Below, piece after piece: positions 17,511 through 25,338 of a DNA stretch of 37,584 nucleotides. Where the stretch lies: NCBI GenBank assembly GCA_015660855.1, contig JACSDG010000019.1, positions 1 to 37,584 on the forward strand, written 5' to 3'. Numbering within the stretch: position 1 is the first letter of the stretch; each line of letters opens with the position of its first letter. The DNA comes from Magnetococcales bacterium. GTDB lineage: Bacteria; Pseudomonadota; Magnetococcia; Magnetococcales; UBA8363. The translations under genes and the position numbers were made by a program. The notes under the pieces were generated by a model. It saw only the letters and a list, made by a program, of their open reading frames with translations. It made no database searches and had not been told where the DNA came from.

Positions 17511-19550
17511 GTGCGTGTTCGCCTGTGGATATTTATTGGTCTCCCCGCCGCCGTCACCATCGCCAGTCATCTATTTCCCGGTTCGCCACTTCTGGCCATC
17601 ATCCAGGATGGACACGGCATCGCCAGCGTCCCCATACTTTTTGCAGCCATGATGATGGTGTCGTGGCTCGCCTTTCGTACCGCCTATTCAGGGTTTGCCC
17701 TGGGACGGGGGATATTCACCGCTGGACATTCCCCCGAAACCATCCGCAAGGCCATCTCCCGGTCGCGGGTTTCCGACCAAGAGCGTTTTCAGTTGATCCG
17801 AAACCTGCGCCAGAAACTAAAGATTTTACAAGAAAAAGAAGCAGAACTGGAAATGCTCAAAAAGGTTCTGTCCCACATTGACGAGGCCGTGGTCATCACC
17901 AACGCGCAGGGAACCATTTGTTCGGTCAATCCTGCCTTTTGCGCCATTACCGGCTTTGGGGAAAACGAAATTCTTGGCCAAAACATGCGCCTGCTGAAGA
18001 GTGGACGCCACGATCCCGCTTTCTACGCCGACATGTGGCAGACACTGCTGGCCAAGGGGTTGTGGACAGGCAACATATGGAACCAGCGTAAGAACGGCGA
18101 TGTCTACCCGCAATGGACCGTCATCAAGGCCATCCGCAACGGGGGCGGATCCATACGCAATTTTGTGGGGATTTTGTCCGACCTCACCGACATACGCGAG
18201 ACCGAGCAACAGATTGAATTCATCGCCCATTACGATCCCTTGACGGAGCTTCCCAACCGCATTCTTTTCAAGGATCGCCTCAACCAGGCCCTGGCCCAAT
18301 CCAAACGCCACAAACAATGGGTGGGGGTGTTGTGGCTGGGATTGGATCGATTTCAACAGGTCAATGCCAATGGTGGTCGGTTTTTAGGTGACCAGGTACT
18401 CAAAGCCCTGGCCTTGCGGTTGAAAAACGAAATGCGGGAAGAGGATACCGTCGCCCGCATGGGAGGTGATGAATTTGCCATTTTGATCACCCATGTGGAT
18501 GACTTGGCCCCACTGGGCCAAACAGCGGAAAAAGTCCTCACCCTGGTCGGGCGCACCCTGCAATTTGGCGATCATTCCCTGCATTTTTCTGCCAGCATTG
18601 GCATTACCACCTTTCCCATGGATCCAAGCGATGATGCGGAGACCATGTTGAAACATGCCGAAACCGCCATGAAACAAGCCAAGGATCGCGGAGGCAACGC
18701 CTTCAAGTTTTATTCCCAGCAGATGGGTGAGGTGGCGATGCAACGCTGGAATATTGAAAAAGGGTTGAAGAAGGCGTTGGAGCGCAAAGAATTTTTCTTA
18801 CTCTACCAACCCCAGTTTTGCGTTCGCACCGGTGCCCTGACAGGGGTTGAGGCGTTGGTACGCTGGAGGAGCCCTCAGTTTGGCCTGGTTGCCCCTGGGC
18901 AGTTCATATCCCTTGCGGAAGAGAGTGGTCTGATTGTTCCCTTGGGGGAGTGGATCCTCGGTGAAGCCTGTATTCAAAACAAACTATGGCAGGATGCGGG
19001 GTATCCCCCCATCCATGTCGCCGTCAACGTCTCCCCACGGCAGTTTCAAAGCTCCAATCTTGAAGACCATGTGGAAAAAGTACTGCAGAGCACCAAACTT
19101 GATCCCTGCTGGCTGGAACTGGAAATCACCGAAAGCCTGTTCATGGATGATCAGGATCGGGTCATGGGCATCCTGAACCGTTGGCGCGAACGCAACCTGA
19201 TGCTTGCCATCGATGATTTTGGCACGGGTTATTCGTCTTTGAGCTATTTGCGCAATTATCCGGTGCATGCCCTGAAAATTGATCGTTCCTTCATTACCGA
19301 CATTGCCCACGATGACAACAGTGCCGCCATCGTCAACGCCATCCTGTCGGTGGCCCGCAGTCTAAAACTCAAGGTGGTTGCCGAGGGGGTGGCTTCGACA
19401 CAACAATTGGAATTTTTACGTCAATCCGGTTGTGACAAGGTTCAAGGTTTTCTGTTCAGTCCACCAGTTACCGCCGATGAAATCACCCGCATCATGGAAG
19501 AGGGACGCCTAATCACCACCCGCACGTCAAGTCTTCCACCAATCTCCTGA
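17511..19550 (+). CDS. Membrane PAS-GGDEF-EAL c-di-GMP protein
   Basis: 679 residues. Two hydrophobic segments lie in the first ~70 residues (LWIFIGLPAAVTIASHLF and ASVPILFAAMMMVSWLAF), followed by a short coiled coil and a PAS domain (about 110-225). The GGDEF domain has intact GGDEF (318-322) preceded by an RxxD I-site (REED). The EAL domain has EALVRW (from 447), ELEITES, DDFGTGYSSLSYL and VAEGVA. All residues for both synthesis and hydrolysis of c-di-GMP appear present, so either activity is possible. I chose GTG 17511, 8 bases after GGGAG; a TTG at 17478 would be 11 codons longer. The gene stands alone. Confidence 0.92.
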   Translation: MRVRLWIFIGLPAAVTIASHLFPGSPLLAIIQDGHGIASVPILFAAMMMVSWLAFRTAYSGFALGRGIFTAGHSPETIRKAISRSRVSDQERFQLIRNLRQKLKILQEKEAELEMLKKVLSHIDEAVVITNAQGTICSVNPAFCAITGFGENEILGQNMRLLKSGRHDPAFYADMWQTLLAKGLWTGNIWNQRKNGDVYPQWTVIKAIRNGGGSIRNFVGILSDLTDIRETEQQIEFIAHYDPLTELPNRILFKDRLNQALAQSKRHKQWVGVLWLGLDRFQQVNANGGRFLGDQVLKALALRLKNEMREEDTVARMGGDEFAILITHVDDLAPLGQTAEKVLTLVGRTLQFGDHSLHFSASIGITTFPMDPSDDAETMLKHAETAMKQAKDRGGNAFKFYSQQMGEVAMQRWNIEKGLKKALERKEFFLLYQPQFCVRTGALTGVEALVRWRSPQFGLVAPGQFISLAEESGLIVPLGEWILGEACIQNKLWQDAGYPPIHVAVNVSPRQFQSSNLEDHVEKVLQSTKLDPCWLELEITESLFMDDQDRVMGILNRWRERNLMLAIDDFGTGYSSLSYLRNYPVHALKIDRSFITDIAHDDNSAAIVNAILSVARSLKLKVVAEGVASTQQLEFLRQSGCDKVQGFLFSPPVTADEITRIMEEGRLITTRTSSLPPIS

Positions 19551-19880
19551 CTTGATATGGACCATCCTGTCCTGCGGGCAAAAAGTTTAAGCCAAAACAT
19601 TTTCTGGACGTCTTTAAGAGCCGCTCTTCAGCGTTATCAACCACTTTTAAGAATAACCGGACAGGCTAGGGAACAATCCTTGACATCCTCTGGTCTTAAA
19701 GGTCATACTTGCCGACACATGGTCGGATATCTCCAGCATGGACGCGCGCATGCTTACCGTGGTTCTGTTTTTGGTGGCACTGGCCTGGGCCAACAGCTAG
19801 GAGTGGTGTCCCGGTATGCCGCACCAGAGGATGTCTCCCATCGGACAACCCACGCCGGCTCCGGTTTAATGATATCCAGG
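19551..19880. other. Intergenic region with repeat copy D and a possible gene remnant
   Basis: Near 19565-19583 is another copy of the repeat head (TCCTGTCCTGCGGGCAAAAAG). At roughly 19712-19800 one frame reads a short hydrophobic peptide ending MLTVVLFLVALAWANS-stop, which looks like the end of a decayed gene, possibly a transposase tail, but is too short to identify. I see no intact gene. Confidence 0.4.
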
Positions 19881-19909
19881 TTGACATTTTTGTTATACTT
19901 GTCTTCTAA
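19881..19909 (+). promoter_or_regulatory. Sigma-70-like promoter of the NACHT island
   Basis: TTGACA (19881-19886), a 17-base spacer, then TTCTAA (19904-19909). The -35 box is perfect and the -10 box is fair. Transcription would start near 19916, about 10 bases before the NACHT ATG, giving a very short leader. The ribosome site before that ATG is weak. Confidence 0.45.
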
Positions 19910-19925
19910 AATGGGATAGTGTTTT

Positions 19926-22900
19926 ATGGAAAACCTTAATTCAGATTATTTAATAAATCTGCTTTCAGAAAAACTTAAAGACATAGATGAAGGCGATATA
20001 CGCTTTCAACGACTTGCTCATATTATTCTTGCACAAGAAATCTACCAGATTCAAACTAATTCAAATCAGCCATTACCAAATTTTCGCATGGAGGACGGGC
20101 ACATTCTAGCTGGCGACGTGTTACTTGTAATCGAACTGTCTTCAATAAGTTGGGAAAGAAGAATTAATAGTTCACTCCGGGGAAGTCAGGCACATTCATT
20201 TGTAAGTAATCATAAGACAGTTAAGCGTGTTTGCGCGGCGTCGATTAACAAGAGCAATGATAGAGGTTCCGAGTTTGTGAACTATATTAGAAGGATTGGT
20301 GAATTATTAGACAAAAGAGTTAAATTTGAATGGTGGGATCAGAATTTTTTGTTTCAAAAAGTTTTCGATAACCCAGCATTGGCCAGAGTTACTGGATTTT
20401 CTTTTTTAACTGAGGAAGAAAAAGCAAGCTTTGATGACTTGAGATCTAATTATCGAAGAATCTTGGAGAATAAAAATAATCATATTAGTTTCGTAGGTAT
20501 TTCAGTCTACAAGGAGGAGACTGCGAAGAGTATCCCGATGGATAAAATTTACATCCCACTCGATGTCATTCCTGAGGATGAAAACGAAGATGCGTCCCGG
20601 TTCAACCCCTTAAACCTGTCATTGCATCGTGGTAAAAGGTATGTTATCTTGGGTGATCCTGGCTCGGGCAAGTCGTCGATGCTTCGTTTCCTGTCTTTGG
20701 TGGGGAGTGTTCAGAAGCTTCGCGAGCGATATAACTCTGTACAGGATGATCGGTTGTTTCTACTGATTTCATTGCGCGACTATGATACATTTTTTCGCGG
20801 TAACCATTACAAAAATTTTGTAAACTACATCATTGACTTTATCACCTCCTCATTTAATCTGACTGTTAGCCGTAACTTCTTGGAATATTTTTTGTTTAAC
20901 GGTGACGTTGTATTGCTTGTAGATGGAGTTGATGAATTGCCAGACTTGAACTACAGGAAAAACATTCGTGAACTGATCCGAGAGTTCTCAATGCTATATC
21001 CTGGAAACACTATTTTGGTCACATCACGCTTTGTTGGATATGAAAAAGAGGCTAGGTTTGACGGAAATGATTTTAAACACGTAAAAATTGCTGGATTAAC
21101 AGACAAACAAATAGATAATTTTATCCATGATTGGTACACAATTCGTGTTGAAGATGAAAACGATTGCAAAGAGCACATCTCAGATCTCATCCGTATTGTC
21201 CACAACCCTGACGCATCTTCCATCCGCGTTCTTTCGGAAAATCCTTTGCTTCTTGCAATTATCTGCCTTGTTCACCGTATTGAGGCCAAGTTGCCGGATG
21301 AGAGGGTTGTCCTGTATCAAAGATGCGTTGAGACCATATTAAACACTTGGCATACGTGGAAGTATAGGCAACGAAGAGAAAACAACAATAGACGAGGTGA
21401 AACTGAGTCTATTAATAGGGCCCGATTAGAAGCCATTGCCTATTGGATGCAACTTTTAAAGGGAGCTGGTGCTCCCGGACGTGCTACCGTATCAAAAGGT
21501 GAACTAATTGGTTTTCTATCTGAACACATTGTCAGCATTGAAGAGAATAATAAAAGCGATAGCTTTGAAATAGCAAAGGAATTTTTACGTTTCGTCAAGG
21601 AACGTGCTGGCCTGCTGGTTGAAGTGACAGTTGACCGCTACAGCTTTGTTCATCTCACCTTCCAGGAATACCTTGCTTCCGAGCATTTGCTGACACTCAG
21701 TGAGTTTGGTGGTGTGGATGAACTTTGGAAGTTCATAGAGGATAAATGCGAAATCCCTCATTGGCATGAGACTTTACGTCTTTTGGTCAGCTCATTGAAA
21801 AACCCCGCATCAAAAAAAGCTATACTCGGGTGGATTCTAGAAATGGACGCTAAAGACCCCCAACAAAGTGTCAACAGAATATTACTGGCAGGGGGTGCCC
21901 TCTTGGATGGGATTCAAGCTGCGGAAAGCCTGAAAAAAGAAATTATTATTCCTATGCTACATTATGTTTTAACAACAAAGACAGATGATGATATTGCCAT
22001 TAGAAAGATATCGAGTCAGTTAAGCGTATGGATCAGAAAGAGTGAGGAGAATGGGGAATTGTTACTGGGTTATGCTGCAGAAGTTAACAACCATTTGAAG
22101 GGAGATCCTGACGCACGTTTGCGCTTAGTACTGATGCTGACCGCATGGGGGGTAGAGGGAAAGAGTATAGTCAATTTTTTTGGATGTGGAGAACAAGACC
22201 CTGAAGAAAATATACGATTGTTTGCATTGACAGTGGGAGGATGTGATTCAGTTGTAACCCGAGCATCTTCCGGGTTGGATTCTTTGCATTCCCTATGCTC
22301 TACCATGGCTTCATCAGACTCAAATCAAAATTTGTTGTCTACTATTATATTATGCATGCTTATAAAATCAGAAGCCATCCGTGCTCGGTCTGTTTTCTTT
22401 CATCTGCTCTTTTTGGTTCCAAATATCGCATTATTCATTGATACTATGACCAATTTTATATTGTTAGGGCGAAAGAAACCGTTGCCTCAATATGTGACTT
22501 CTCTAATTAACAGATGGGAACAGGATAGGGCTATAGTATCAAATGCTTTAAAAAATCCCAACGTGATTCAGGAAAAGGAAGGATATTTGTATCGCCAAGT
22601 TGATAAACTTACACGGGTATCTGATTCTGTTTCCAAAGCTATGGGTCTTAAGCCGTTTCCAGAGTCAGGACGACATGCGAGAAACAGAGTGCTTTCTTCT
22701 TTGTCAACATATGGAAGTGTTGACCAGATTAAGATTGAAACGGAAAAAAGAAAATTTCGCACTTTACTACAAAAGAAGATGCCTTATCCTCAAAAAGATG
22801 GATTTAGTAGTCAAAGCTCTGGATTGGTTAGTCAACTCGCGATCCCCTCCAAAGGGATTGGTGAATCAAAAATATTGATGGAGTTCCTGACGGATGCTAT

Positions 22901-23312
22901 TTGTCATCACATGAACTTGGAACCTAAAACTCTTTGGATGGATGCCCTGAAAGCCACGAATTCTCCATCTTCGTTTGAAAAAAAATTTGAGTGGGCCGAT
23001 ATGGGGGCTGACAATGCCTCAATTATGTCTGTTTATCGGGAAAACGCCACAAATGATGGTTGTTGGACTGCCGCCAACCAGATTTTTATCGACCTTTGGC
23101 TCAACTTGTTAAAAAATGATAGTGACAATGAGCCCTCCCCTTATGAAACGTTGATCGGTGCAACCAGGGATGTAGAACACTTGCCCTTGCAAATTGCACA
23201 CTGCATTCGCGACATCGCCCGAAGGGACGCAAGTCGAGAAGACAAACTCAAGGACATGCTTAACTCGAATGGCCTTGAACTTACGACATATTTCAAAAAA
23301 CAATTAAGATAA
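19926..23312 (+). CDS. NACHT-type STAND NTPase (NLR-like, putative anti-phage sensor)
   Basis: 1128 residues. The N-terminal ~195 residues are a domain I do not recognise. A linker ending MDKIYIPLDV precedes the NACHT module: Walker A GDPGSGKSS (243-251), Walker B LLVDGVDELPD (330-340) with the extra acidic residue typical of NACHT, and the sensor TSR (366-368). A winged-helix segment FVHLTFQEYLASEHLL follows near 573-588. The remaining ~540 residues are mostly helical and probably the ligand-sensing region. No signal peptide or TM is seen, so it is cytosolic. Codon use is clearly more AT-rich than in flanking genes, indicating transfer. It starts a plus-strand trio with a subtilisin-like protease 40 bases downstream. 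Known bacterial NACHT proteins defend against phage; that role here is inferred. Confidence 0.9.
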   Translation: MENLNSDYLINLLSEKLKDIDEGDIRFQRLAHIILAQEIYQIQTNSNQPLPNFRMEDGHILAGDVLLVIELSSISWERRINSSLRGSQAHSFVSNHKTVKRVCAASINKSNDRGSEFVNYIRRIGELLDKRVKFEWWDQNFLFQKVFDNPALARVTGFSFLTEEEKASFDDLRSNYRRILENKNNHISFVGISVYKEETAKSIPMDKIYIPLDVIPEDENEDASRFNPLNLSLHRGKRYVILGDPGSGKSSMLRFLSLVGSVQKLRERYNSVQDDRLFLLISLRDYDTFFRGNHYKNFVNYIIDFITSSFNLTVSRNFLEYFLFNGDVVLLVDGVDELPDLNYRKNIRELIREFSMLYPGNTILVTSRFVGYEKEARFDGNDFKHVKIAGLTDKQIDNFIHDWYTIRVEDENDCKEHISDLIRIVHNPDASSIRVLSENPLLLAIICLVHRIEAKLPDERVVLYQRCVETILNTWHTWKYRQRRENNNRRGETESINRARLEAIAYWMQLLKGAGAPGRATVSKGELIGFLSEHIVSIEENNKSDSFEIAKEFLRFVKERAGLLVEVTVDRYSFVHLTFQEYLASEHLLTLSEFGGVDELWKFIEDKCEIPHWHETLRLLVSSLKNPASKKAILGWILEMDAKDPQQSVNRILLAGGALLDGIQAAESLKKEIIIPMLHYVLTTKTDDDIAIRKISSQLSVWIRKSEENGELLLGYAAEVNNHLKGDPDARLRLVLMLTAWGVEGKSIVNFFGCGEQDPEENIRLFALTVGGCDSVVTRASSGLDSLHSLCSTMASSDSNQNLLSTIILCMLIKSEAIRARSVFFHLLFLVPNIALFIDTMTNFILLGRKKPLPQYVTSLINRWEQDRAIVSNALKNPNVIQEKEGYLYRQVDKLTRVSDSVSKAMGLKPFPESGRHARNRVLSSLSTYGSVDQIKIETEKRKFRTLLQKKMPYPQKDGFSSQSSGLVSQLAIPSKGIGESKILMEFLTDAICHHMNLEPKTLWMDALKATNSPSSFEKKFEWADMGADNASIMSVYRENATNDGCWTAANQIFIDLWLNLLKNDSDNEPSPYETLIGATRDVEHLPLQIAHCIRDIARRDASREDKLKDMLNSNGLELTTYFKKQLR

Positions 23313-23352: not shown

Positions 23353-24894
23353 GTGGAACGAAAAAAAAATTTAATAGCAAAAGCCGATCAGATTCTCGAT
23401 GAATCCCAAGAGTCCGAGTTGGAAGTGATTGTACAATTGATCTCTCCTCATGGAGTGGATCGCCGGTTTGCGATAGGTAACTCAGCTTCGGAACCATCTA
23501 GGTGGAGATTCTGTCTGTCTCCACGAGACTTATTACCTGGTGCCTACATCAAAAAGGAAAAATCTCGCGATCTGGAAGGAGTCGCGAGCGTTTTTGAACA
23601 TCTAAGAGTGACACGCGGCCAGGAAGAATCTCTGAAAATAGCCAGTTTTGGCAAAGCACCTCAGTACCCACCGGATTCGTCTTTTTTTAAATCTAATATA
23701 GTACAAAATGCCGTTTCCCGCATGATGAGAACAAATGTCGCGGCCGAACGAAGCCCATTTTGGTTTAAATCTTCACGGTCTATGCTTTTGCGGCTTGAGC
23801 GTAGTGAAATCCACAAATTGATCATCGACCAGACAGACAAAATCCAGACAATTCACATAAATCGCAAGTTAAGTTTGCCGAGTATAGCACAGTCAAGGGC
23901 ACCCGATATTGAGGAAAATTCAATACTTTCATCAACCTGGGGCCTCGATAAAATCAAGGCTACCTCTGTTTGGGGTGTCTATGGTGCCCGAGGAAAAGGG
24001 GTCACTATCGCGTTGCTTGACACGGGAGTTGATGCCAAACATCCCGACTTGGCTGGGAAAATCCAACATTGGGCCGAATTTAATTCACAAGGTTATCTCA
24101 TAGACGACAATAACGAAAACGCTCGAGACTCTGACGATCATGGCACGCACTGCGGTGGCGTTTTGGTTGGTGGGCGCGAGTCAGGACGTTTTATTGGAGT
24201 AGCTCCAGAGGCTCAGTTAGCTGCGGCTATGGTTTTAAATGCCGGAACTGGAACAGATGCGCAGATCTTAGCCGGGATCGACTGGGCCATTAATAAAAAG
24301 GTCGATGTCATCAGCATGTCCTTGGGAGGGCTGACCATAACCAGCGAAACACCTTCAACCTATACCAGAGCCATATTAACCAGCATAGAAGAAGGAATTC
24401 CAGTGGTTGCTGCTATTGGAAATTCTGGCAATCAGACAACCTTTGCCCCAGGCAACGATTATTTTACCCTGAGTGTTGGCGCAGTTGATCCTAATGATCG
24501 AGTTGCAGGTTTTTCATCGGGTCGCACCCAATTTATTGCGGATTCTGTATTGAATGAATATCCAGGCCTTCCTAAATATTACTTTAAGCCAGATCTGGTC
24601 GCACCGGGGGTGGCTGTCTATTCTTCGGTTCCGGGTCCAGAAAAACATGCATGGTTTAATGGCACTTCCATGGCCACCCCCCACGTGGCGGGTGCCATCG
24701 CTCTGCTTTTGTCGGCTACAGACATCCGCAATAAAACAACCAAGAGCGAACGAGCCTTTTTAATTTCAGACCTGATTACCGGATCGGTTGAAGAGATGGG
24801 CGAGTTTGGTCAGGACCACAGATACGGTTATGGAAGGCTGGATATACTCAGAGCTATCGATATAGCTATAGAAAGGGGTTATGGAAGGTCTTGA
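23353..24894 (+). CDS. Cytosolic subtilisin-like serine protease (S8) with N-terminal prodomain
   Basis: 513 residues. The catalytic triad is complete: D223 in LLDTGVDAKHPDL, H263 in DHGTHCGG, and S439 in FNGTSMATPHVAG, with oxyanion N357 in IGNSGN. The first ~190 residues are an N-terminal region that probably folds as a prodomain (segment MLLRLERSEIHKLIID at 144-159). No signal peptide or TM is visible, which is unusual for S8 proteases and implies intracellular action. The start is GTG, about 9 bases after GGGGGA. It lies 40 bases after the NACHT gene, so they are probably co-transcribed. An effector protease controlled by the NACHT protein is inferred. Confidence 0.93.
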   Translation: MERKKNLIAKADQILDESQESELEVIVQLISPHGVDRRFAIGNSASEPSRWRFCLSPRDLLPGAYIKKEKSRDLEGVASVFEHLRVTRGQEESLKIASFGKAPQYPPDSSFFKSNIVQNAVSRMMRTNVAAERSPFWFKSSRSMLLRLERSEIHKLIIDQTDKIQTIHINRKLSLPSIAQSRAPDIEENSILSSTWGLDKIKATSVWGVYGARGKGVTIALLDTGVDAKHPDLAGKIQHWAEFNSQGYLIDDNNENARDSDDHGTHCGGVLVGGRESGRFIGVAPEAQLAAAMVLNAGTGTDAQILAGIDWAINKKVDVISMSLGGLTITSETPSTYTRAILTSIEEGIPVVAAIGNSGNQTTFAPGNDYFTLSVGAVDPNDRVAGFSSGRTQFIADSVLNEYPGLPKYYFKPDLVAPGVAVYSSVPGPEKHAWFNGTSMATPHVAGAIALLLSATDIRNKTTKSERAFLISDLITGSVEEMGEFGQDHRYGYGRLDILRAIDIAIERGYGRS

Positions 24895-24966
24895 CGTTCC
24901 CTTGATTTTGTGATAGTGTTGGGAGTGGTGTATTCCTCAAGCCTGTAGCCAATAAAAGTTCCCGTG

Positions 24967-25338
24967 ATGACCAAAAAACTAGACGCTGATTTAGAACAAT
25001 GGCTTTCCGAAGATGGTGGGGAGCAGGAGTTGATTTTAGAGGCCGTTTTGCCTAGCCCAAAACTGCGTATGGCCAGGAGAGACCTTGTTGGGATCCGAAT
25101 GCCGGGCCATATAAAAGTTCCCGTGGGTATTGATGCGGTGCCTATGGAATCGCGGGTCGAGGTGCTGCAAAAACTGGCGGAACGACTTTGGATAGAATTA
25201 GGCCTCTCAGCCAATATTCTCAGAGCAGCCGGATCTTTGGTCGTCCGAGCCTCGGCGCAGCAGACTCGAATCATCCTTGATATTCCCGAGGTGGGAAAGA
25301 TCCGTCCCAACCGCGTCGTACATCTCTGTACCTGCTGA
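24967..25338 (+). CDS. Small protein resembling the S8 prodomain (putative protease inhibitor/chaperone)
   Basis: 123 residues, no signal peptide or TM. It has no family I can name. Its layout matches the N-terminal region of the adjacent protease: an acidic start (ADLEQWLSEDGGEQELILEA versus ADQILDESQESELEVIVQL) and a later strand-helix segment (SLVVRASAQQTRIILDIPEV versus SMLLRLERSEIHKLIIDQTD). S8 prodomains (I9-like) act as intramolecular chaperones and inhibitors, and free-standing versions inhibit in trans. GTG at 24964 is an alternative start. The gene follows the protease by about 70 bases on the same strand. Base composition is intermediate between the island and its surroundings. Confidence 0.72.
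   Translation: MTKKLDADLEQWLSEDGGEQELILEAVLPSPKLRMARRDLVGIRMPGHIKVPVGIDAVPMESRVEVLQKLAERLWIELGLSANILRAAGSLVVRASAQQTRIILDIPEVGKIRPNRVVHLCTC

Follow-up and report, generated by a model that had tools for sequence, protein, structure and literature searches.

The window analysed here, a stretch of 37,584 nucleotides from a Magnetococcales bacterium with a genome of 4.5 Mb, contains an operon-like run of three plus-strand genes for a NACHT (STAND) NTPase, an S8 subtilase and a small protein (Table 1). The small open reading frame, whose position and length of 123 residues had been given correctly by an earlier sequence-only reading, starts with an ATG 72 bp after the stop codon of the subtilase gene; translation could alternatively begin at a GTG one codon upstream. 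No promoter-like site was detected in the interval between these two genes, and neither an RNA family nor a tRNA was found nearby. An exact 15-bp direct repeat, ATAAAAGTTCCCGTG, occupies positions 24952–24966 and 25111–25125. The first copy runs right up to the ATG of the small gene, and the second lies within the gene, close to a 7-residue insertion of the window protein relative to its homologues. The next gene 3′ of the small gene is on the opposite strand and, from a reading of its sequence, is presumably that of an aconitase (acnB). On the other side of the run, an uncharacterised 120-amino acid open reading frame (19557–19919) is situated between a GGDEF/EAL gene and the NACHT gene. Approximately 50 matches to one PAS/GGDEF/EAL protein were returned across the whole genome, corresponding to a large cyclic-di-GMP repertoire.

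Table 1. Positions of the genes, domains and residues discussed in the text, numbered from the first nucleotide of the window.
Feature	Position	Strand	Basis
NACHT (STAND) NTPase gene, 1128 aa, optional upstream partner	19926–23312	+	PF05729, E 6e-7
S8 subtilase gene (513 aa), signal peptide not apparent	23353–24894	+	PF00082, solved relatives, hydrophobicity
S8 N-terminal prodomain, residues 1–180	23353–23892	+	AlphaFold2, VIA match, profile similarity
Catalytic Asp223 codon	24019–24021	+	kept in all 32 aligned S8 relatives
Catalytic His263 codon	24139–24141	+	kept in all 32 aligned S8 relatives
Oxyanion Asn357 codon	24421–24423	+	kept in all 32 aligned S8 relatives
Catalytic Ser439 codon (GTSMA)	24667–24669	+	kept in all 32 aligned S8 relatives
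Gene of the small protein (123 aa), free-standing and subtilase-propeptide-like	24967–25338	+	ORF, predicted fold, fold matches, family conservation, selection
Strand beta1, residues 20–26	25024–25044	+	AlphaFold2 model
Helix alpha1, residues 60–78	25144–25200	+	AlphaFold2 model
Hairpin beta2-beta3, residues 82–95, within the C-terminal half, where the family is best conserved	25210–25251	+	AlphaFold2 model, family alignment
alpha2 and beta4, residues 97–114, followed by conserved NR	25255–25308	+	AlphaFold2 model, family alignment
C-terminal tail VVHLCTC after NR, residues 117–123	25315–25335	+	1spb_P alignment, tail lengths

The GC content between positions 19500 and 24000 is 41–43%, versus 51–57% in the flanks. 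No match to the small gene was returned from seven congeneric genomes. Several of these congeners do have the flanking GGDEF/EAL gene and acnB, which, in the stretches read, are joined neither to the module nor to one another. The low-GC block, the absence from the congeners and the unjoined flanking genes fit a horizontal arrival of the module at this locus. The closest relatives possessing the pair of S8 and small genes are Magnetococcales MAGs. A copy of the pair, reached by the S8 search, is also carried by a plasmid of Piscinibacter gummiphilus, where the small open reading frame is absent from the annotation of the record. No relatives were returned when plasmids were searched with the small protein alone, and none were found in viral contigs.

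The catalytic domain of the subtilase was matched by PF00082 over residues 214–494 with an E-value of 5.8e-57. The Asp/His/Ser triad is complete, as is the oxyanion Asn, and these residues are intact in every one of the 32 aligned relatives. The nearest solved chains are intracellular subtilisins, and the hydrophobicity of the N-terminus reveals no obvious signal peptide; the enzyme probably works inside the cell. A WD40 domain was not found in the Pfam search. The AlphaFold2 model of the S8 prodomain has a propeptide fold with a much longer beta1-alpha1 insertion, and its best matches from VIA-align are Tk-subtilisin propeptides, with a middling Z-score of 5.2 over 65 of 66 residues.

The small protein was modelled with AlphaFold2 from an alignment of 28 rows, with a pLDDT of 82.5 overall and approximately 90–98 in the core. 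Four strands (residues 20–26, 82–85, 90–95 and 109–114) and two helices (residues 60–78 and 97–103) are predicted in the order beta-alpha-beta-beta-alpha-beta, which is that of subtilase propeptides. A short helix precedes the first strand, and the beta1-alpha1 loop is modelled with low confidence. A Foldseek search of the PDB returned no match at E ≤ 0.001 for this model (E-values of 0.08 or worse) or for that of the S8 prodomain, and a second look with VIA-align was therefore needed. In the resulting ranking for the small protein, the top 15 solved matches are all subtilase prodomains, headed by that of Tk-SP (PDB code: 3afg; Z-score 9.7, 2.2 Å over 84 residues). Other matches include the BPN′ prosegment (3cnq_P, Z-score 8.2; 1spb_P, 7.7) and the PCSK9 prodomain (2p4e_P, 8.0), and the free-standing inhibitor POIA1 (1v5i_B) is ranked 18th with a Z-score of 7.2 and 2.6 Å over 71 residues. 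Generic ferredoxin-like folds such as ribosomal protein S6 also match, with a Z-score of 6.8, so that the fold alone would not decide the identity of the protein. The AlphaFold2 models and VIA matches give the small protein and the protease prodomain the same propeptide fold, as the sequence-only reading had anticipated, and not different ones. In a viral library, the best structural match was BFVD entry A0A886NJ44, an unnamed viral protein of 102 residues (Foldseek E 2.1e-3, probability 1.00), which may be an example of this predicted fold carried by a virus.

Kinship with the N-terminus of the subtilase had been proposed from two pairs of segments. Both pairs exist and occur in the same order in the two proteins, but a Smith-Waterman comparison of the window sequences gave a score of 31 (z 0.4, p 0.31 against shuffles), which is not significant, and the pairwise similarity was dropped as sole evidence of relationship. 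The proposal holds at the level of family profiles. Comparison of the small family with the cognate S8 prodomains by hhalign gave a probability of 94% and a score of 49.8, whereas 200 column shuffles scored 11.2 ± 2.0 (17.8 at most) and the reversed profile 13.0. The HMM of the small family matches S8 N-termini weakly and in the same order, in both the first strand and the final 40 prodomain residues, and it also matches the prodomain of a different subtilase with an E-value of 1.4e-6 (locus L017). An N-terminal helix and a long beta1-alpha1 loop are common to the small protein and the cognate prodomain, which suggests that the former arose by duplication of the latter.

The comparison with inhibitor family I9 that had also been envisaged was negative for the window protein, to which the Pfam model PF05922 gave no match. 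It is the only Pfam family that matches more than one member of the small family (5 of 28), and since all of these matches are below threshold (best E 0.037) the small protein is not filed under Pfam I9. A match to Phage_tube (PF04985, E 0.021) was rejected, being confined to one member and below threshold. Searches of NCBIfam, PADLOC and PHROGs gave no consistent family for the small protein. No significant match was returned from PDB sequences with either the small-family profile or a combined C-terminal profile, a protease propeptide chain (8c4x_B) having an E-value of 0.4. A literature search, which most subscription papers lay outside, yielded no account of a conserved bacterial cytosolic S8 protease accompanied by a separate prodomain gene.

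The distribution of the family was established from the protease: S8 relatives were collected first, a short open reading frame was seen beside nearly all of them, and an HMM was built from 26 of the small proteins. With this HMM the small gene was detected beside the S8 gene in 27 of 28 testable loci (L020–L050, excluding L044, L047 and L048, where a contig edge was reached), distributed over Pseudomonadota, Acidobacteriota, Planctomycetota, Chloroflexota, Cyanobacteriota and Bacteroidota; the S8 locus in which it was not detected is L043. The two genes are separated by 2–20 bp or overlap in several loci. At L050 they are approximately 1.5 kb apart, and at L024 (7116–10412; a Thiosymbion MAG) a transposase-like gene stands between an early-ending S8 gene (485 aa) and the small gene. 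The small gene of L033 (6005–8008) is convergent with that of the protease, which shows that the pairing does not depend on transcription from the same strand. At L042 (8667–9227), the longest reading of the small frame opens with a hydrophobic stretch and a cysteine resembling a lipoprotein signal, which a later start would remove.

Whole-genome searches of the L023–L050 genomes, including those of L047 and L048, found exactly one copy of the small gene in 26 of 28. Among 398 genomes of the phylum, strong matches were confined to the window and four Magnetococcales loci, all beside an S8 gene. The weak matches L015, L016 and L018 look like chance and were set aside, as was L017, the other subtilase prodomain noted above. 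The family HMM detected no small gene at the more distant S8 loci L051–L061. Distances between S8 proteins and between small proteins are correlated (Mantel r 0.69, 0 of 5000 permutations), as is expected if the two genes are inherited together. The ratio dN/dS for the small gene is 0.05–0.4 in close pairs, indicating purifying selection, and this, with its retention beside the same S8 subfamily in six phyla, identifies the frame as a real gene.

These data bear on whether the likeness could be fortuitous, with an unrelated ferredoxin-like protein happening to follow a protease gene. Ferredoxin-like folds are common among proteins and the pairwise similarity is not significant, as such a coincidence would have it, but it would leave unexplained a profile score well above every shuffle, similarity in the order of the prodomain, pairing across six phyla and the single copy in nearly all genomes, and we regard it as very improbable. 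The profile comparison with its shuffle control, the predicted fold and the constant pairing together bear out the earlier proposal of a free-standing relative of the S8 prodomain, and the small protein is very likely propeptide-like and related to the cognate prodomain.

The same fold and pairing are also consistent with a folding chaperone acting in trans, which would help the S8 catalytic domain to fold and then be degraded, with inhibition as a side effect; in the available text of one report, the propeptides of mesophilic subtilases are described as obligatory folding chaperones (PMC10580911). The subtilase, however, has its own prodomain of the same fold, which should serve folding, and the convergent gene at L033 removes any need for co-expression from one strand. 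A role mainly as a chaperone is accordingly judged unlikely.

The proposal that the small protein is the third-gene inhibitor of a single three-gene system did not survive the comparison of loci. The NACHT gene is present in five examined loci, and relatives of it upstream of S8 were found, besides the window, only at L007, L008/L020, L024 and L027. All of the NACHT-bearing loci fall within one supported clade of nine S8 sequences. The remaining S8 loci have unrelated genes upstream, although some end at a contig edge before the NACHT position. The NACHT relatives at L008 (1–870) and L027 (2455–5552) seem to be split into separate frames. A three-gene core was thus rejected: as the NACHT gene is restricted to one S8 subclade, the core is a two-gene cassette of protease and propeptide, in which the S8 protease and the small protein are the constant unit and the NACHT protein is an optional extra. 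The occurrence of two adjacent genes with a patchy distribution (27 of 28 loci, six phyla, one plasmid) is as seen in toxin-antitoxin modules. In comparison to characterised antiphage NACHT families, the window NACHT protein gave weak partial matches (the P-loop region of EruA, E 4e-4; mad8/mad3).

Alignment of the small protein to the BPN′ prosegment (1spb_P) places its last aligned residue, 121, at chain residue Tyr77 (P1), so that the window protein may be able to reach the S1 pocket. With the end of this alignment as yardstick, the window protein and 13 others have a tail of sufficient length after the NR motif, whereas in 14 of 28 members it is too short for S1, and substrate-like occupation of the active site therefore cannot be general in the family. 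For the short-tail members, either docking is enough by itself or the action is gentler than full inhibition. A solved complex (PDB code: 3a3o) is, by its title, that of a propeptide without its five last residues.

Tails too short to fill S1 point to docking rather than plugging, and would suit a permanent regulatory subunit or specificity factor that stays bound and limits the substrates or partners of the protease, for example the NACHT protein, much as the PCSK9 prodomain is retained; that prodomain is also among the best fold matches. There is no sign of a holoenzyme, however, and most loci lack the NACHT gene; such a subunit is judged improbable. Another conceivable role is that of a substrate or sensor, cleaved by the S8 protease to release the enzyme or a signal, and degradation of the propeptide does occur in subtilase maturation according to the available text of PMC10580911. 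Against this, no conserved cleavage site was seen and conservation in the family lies in the core and not in the tail, and we give this role very little credence.

The explanation that accounts best for the data, and which we consider reasonably probable, is that the small protein is a trans-acting propeptide that inhibits the cytosolic S8 protease. According to the available text of PMC10580911, an isolated subtilase propeptide packs with its sheet against two helices on the surface of the catalytic domain while its tail lies in the cleft, and that of pernisine inhibits in trans, acting on its cognate enzyme only. By analogy, the small protein, a probably duplicated and free-standing version of the prodomain of the upstream subtilase, would use its compact beta-alpha-beta-beta-alpha-beta domain to dock the sheet on two surface helices of the S8 catalytic domain, for which the segments around TDAQILAGIDWA and TYTRAILTSI are candidates. 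In the long-tail members, including the window protein, the C-terminus would extend as far as the cleft of the active site as well. Docking would keep the cytosolic protease inactive in trans until the small protein is broken down, displaced or out-titrated. The trigger may come from the NACHT NTPase in the one subclade that has it, to which the window locus belongs. Binding to the cognate protease is likely. Inhibition as the main role is the outcome we would favour with some reserve, and the short tails in half of the members are the reason for not placing it higher. It also counts against inhibition that the S8 protease already has its own prodomain, so that a second inhibitor is not strictly needed.

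Free-standing propeptide-like inhibitors of the I9 type include POIA1 of Pleurotus, yeast IB2 and SPI-type proteins of plants. To our knowledge, the known free-standing propeptide-like inhibitors of subtilases are eukaryotic, mainly from fungi and plants. Like POIA1, the window small protein stands alone and has a predicted subtilase-propeptide fold, and in its proposed action it most likely resembles this type of inhibitor. It differs in being encoded in a bacterium, beside the protease that it presumably controls, and in having an extra N-terminal helix, a long beta1-alpha1 loop and, in much of the family, a short tail. With the propeptides that act in cis (subtilisin BPN′/E, Tk-subtilisin, Tk-SP and pernisine) it shares the predicted fold, the order of elements and presumably the docking surface, but it is produced from a separate gene, while the S8 protease keeps its own prodomain with the long insertion.

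IetAS and the AAA-ATPase/subtilase toxin-antitoxin modules of mycoplasma are also compact modules with an S8 protease; toxicity of the S8 protein in mycoplasma and neutralisation in E. coli are reported (PMC8562856). The antitoxin of those modules is an AAA-ATPase, whereas in the present family the S8 protease is regularly paired with a propeptide-like protein. IetA models gave no match to the three operon proteins, and the IetS models of PADLOC matched only the generic S8 core of the window subtilase, weakly (E 2.8e-4). The combination of a NACHT NTPase and an S8 peptidase resembles bacterial NACHT/STAND conflict systems with peptidase partners, as far as the available portions of PMC7159879 and PMC10907252 describe them; the latter report includes a NACHT locus beside which an S8-WD40 peptidase is encoded. 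No WD40 domain, in contrast, was found in the window subtilase, and NACHT accompanies only one S8 subclade. No separate propeptide-like gene is mentioned in the available portions of the two reports.

More speculatively, the family may represent a widespread module of two genes, one for a cytosolic subtilase and the other for a free copy of its prodomain that holds the enzyme inactive, a toxin-antitoxin-like switch that in one lineage has come under a NACHT NTPase, in parallel to the control of a protease zymogen by the inflammasome; we put this forward tentatively, as a possibility on the doubtful side. Being short and matching no curated family, the small gene is easily missed. If the proposal is true, six or more phyla would share a simple switch that acts after translation on a potentially self-destructive protease, and through the NACHT-linked subclade a protease-zymogen arm of bacterial NLR-like immunity would become open to direct test.
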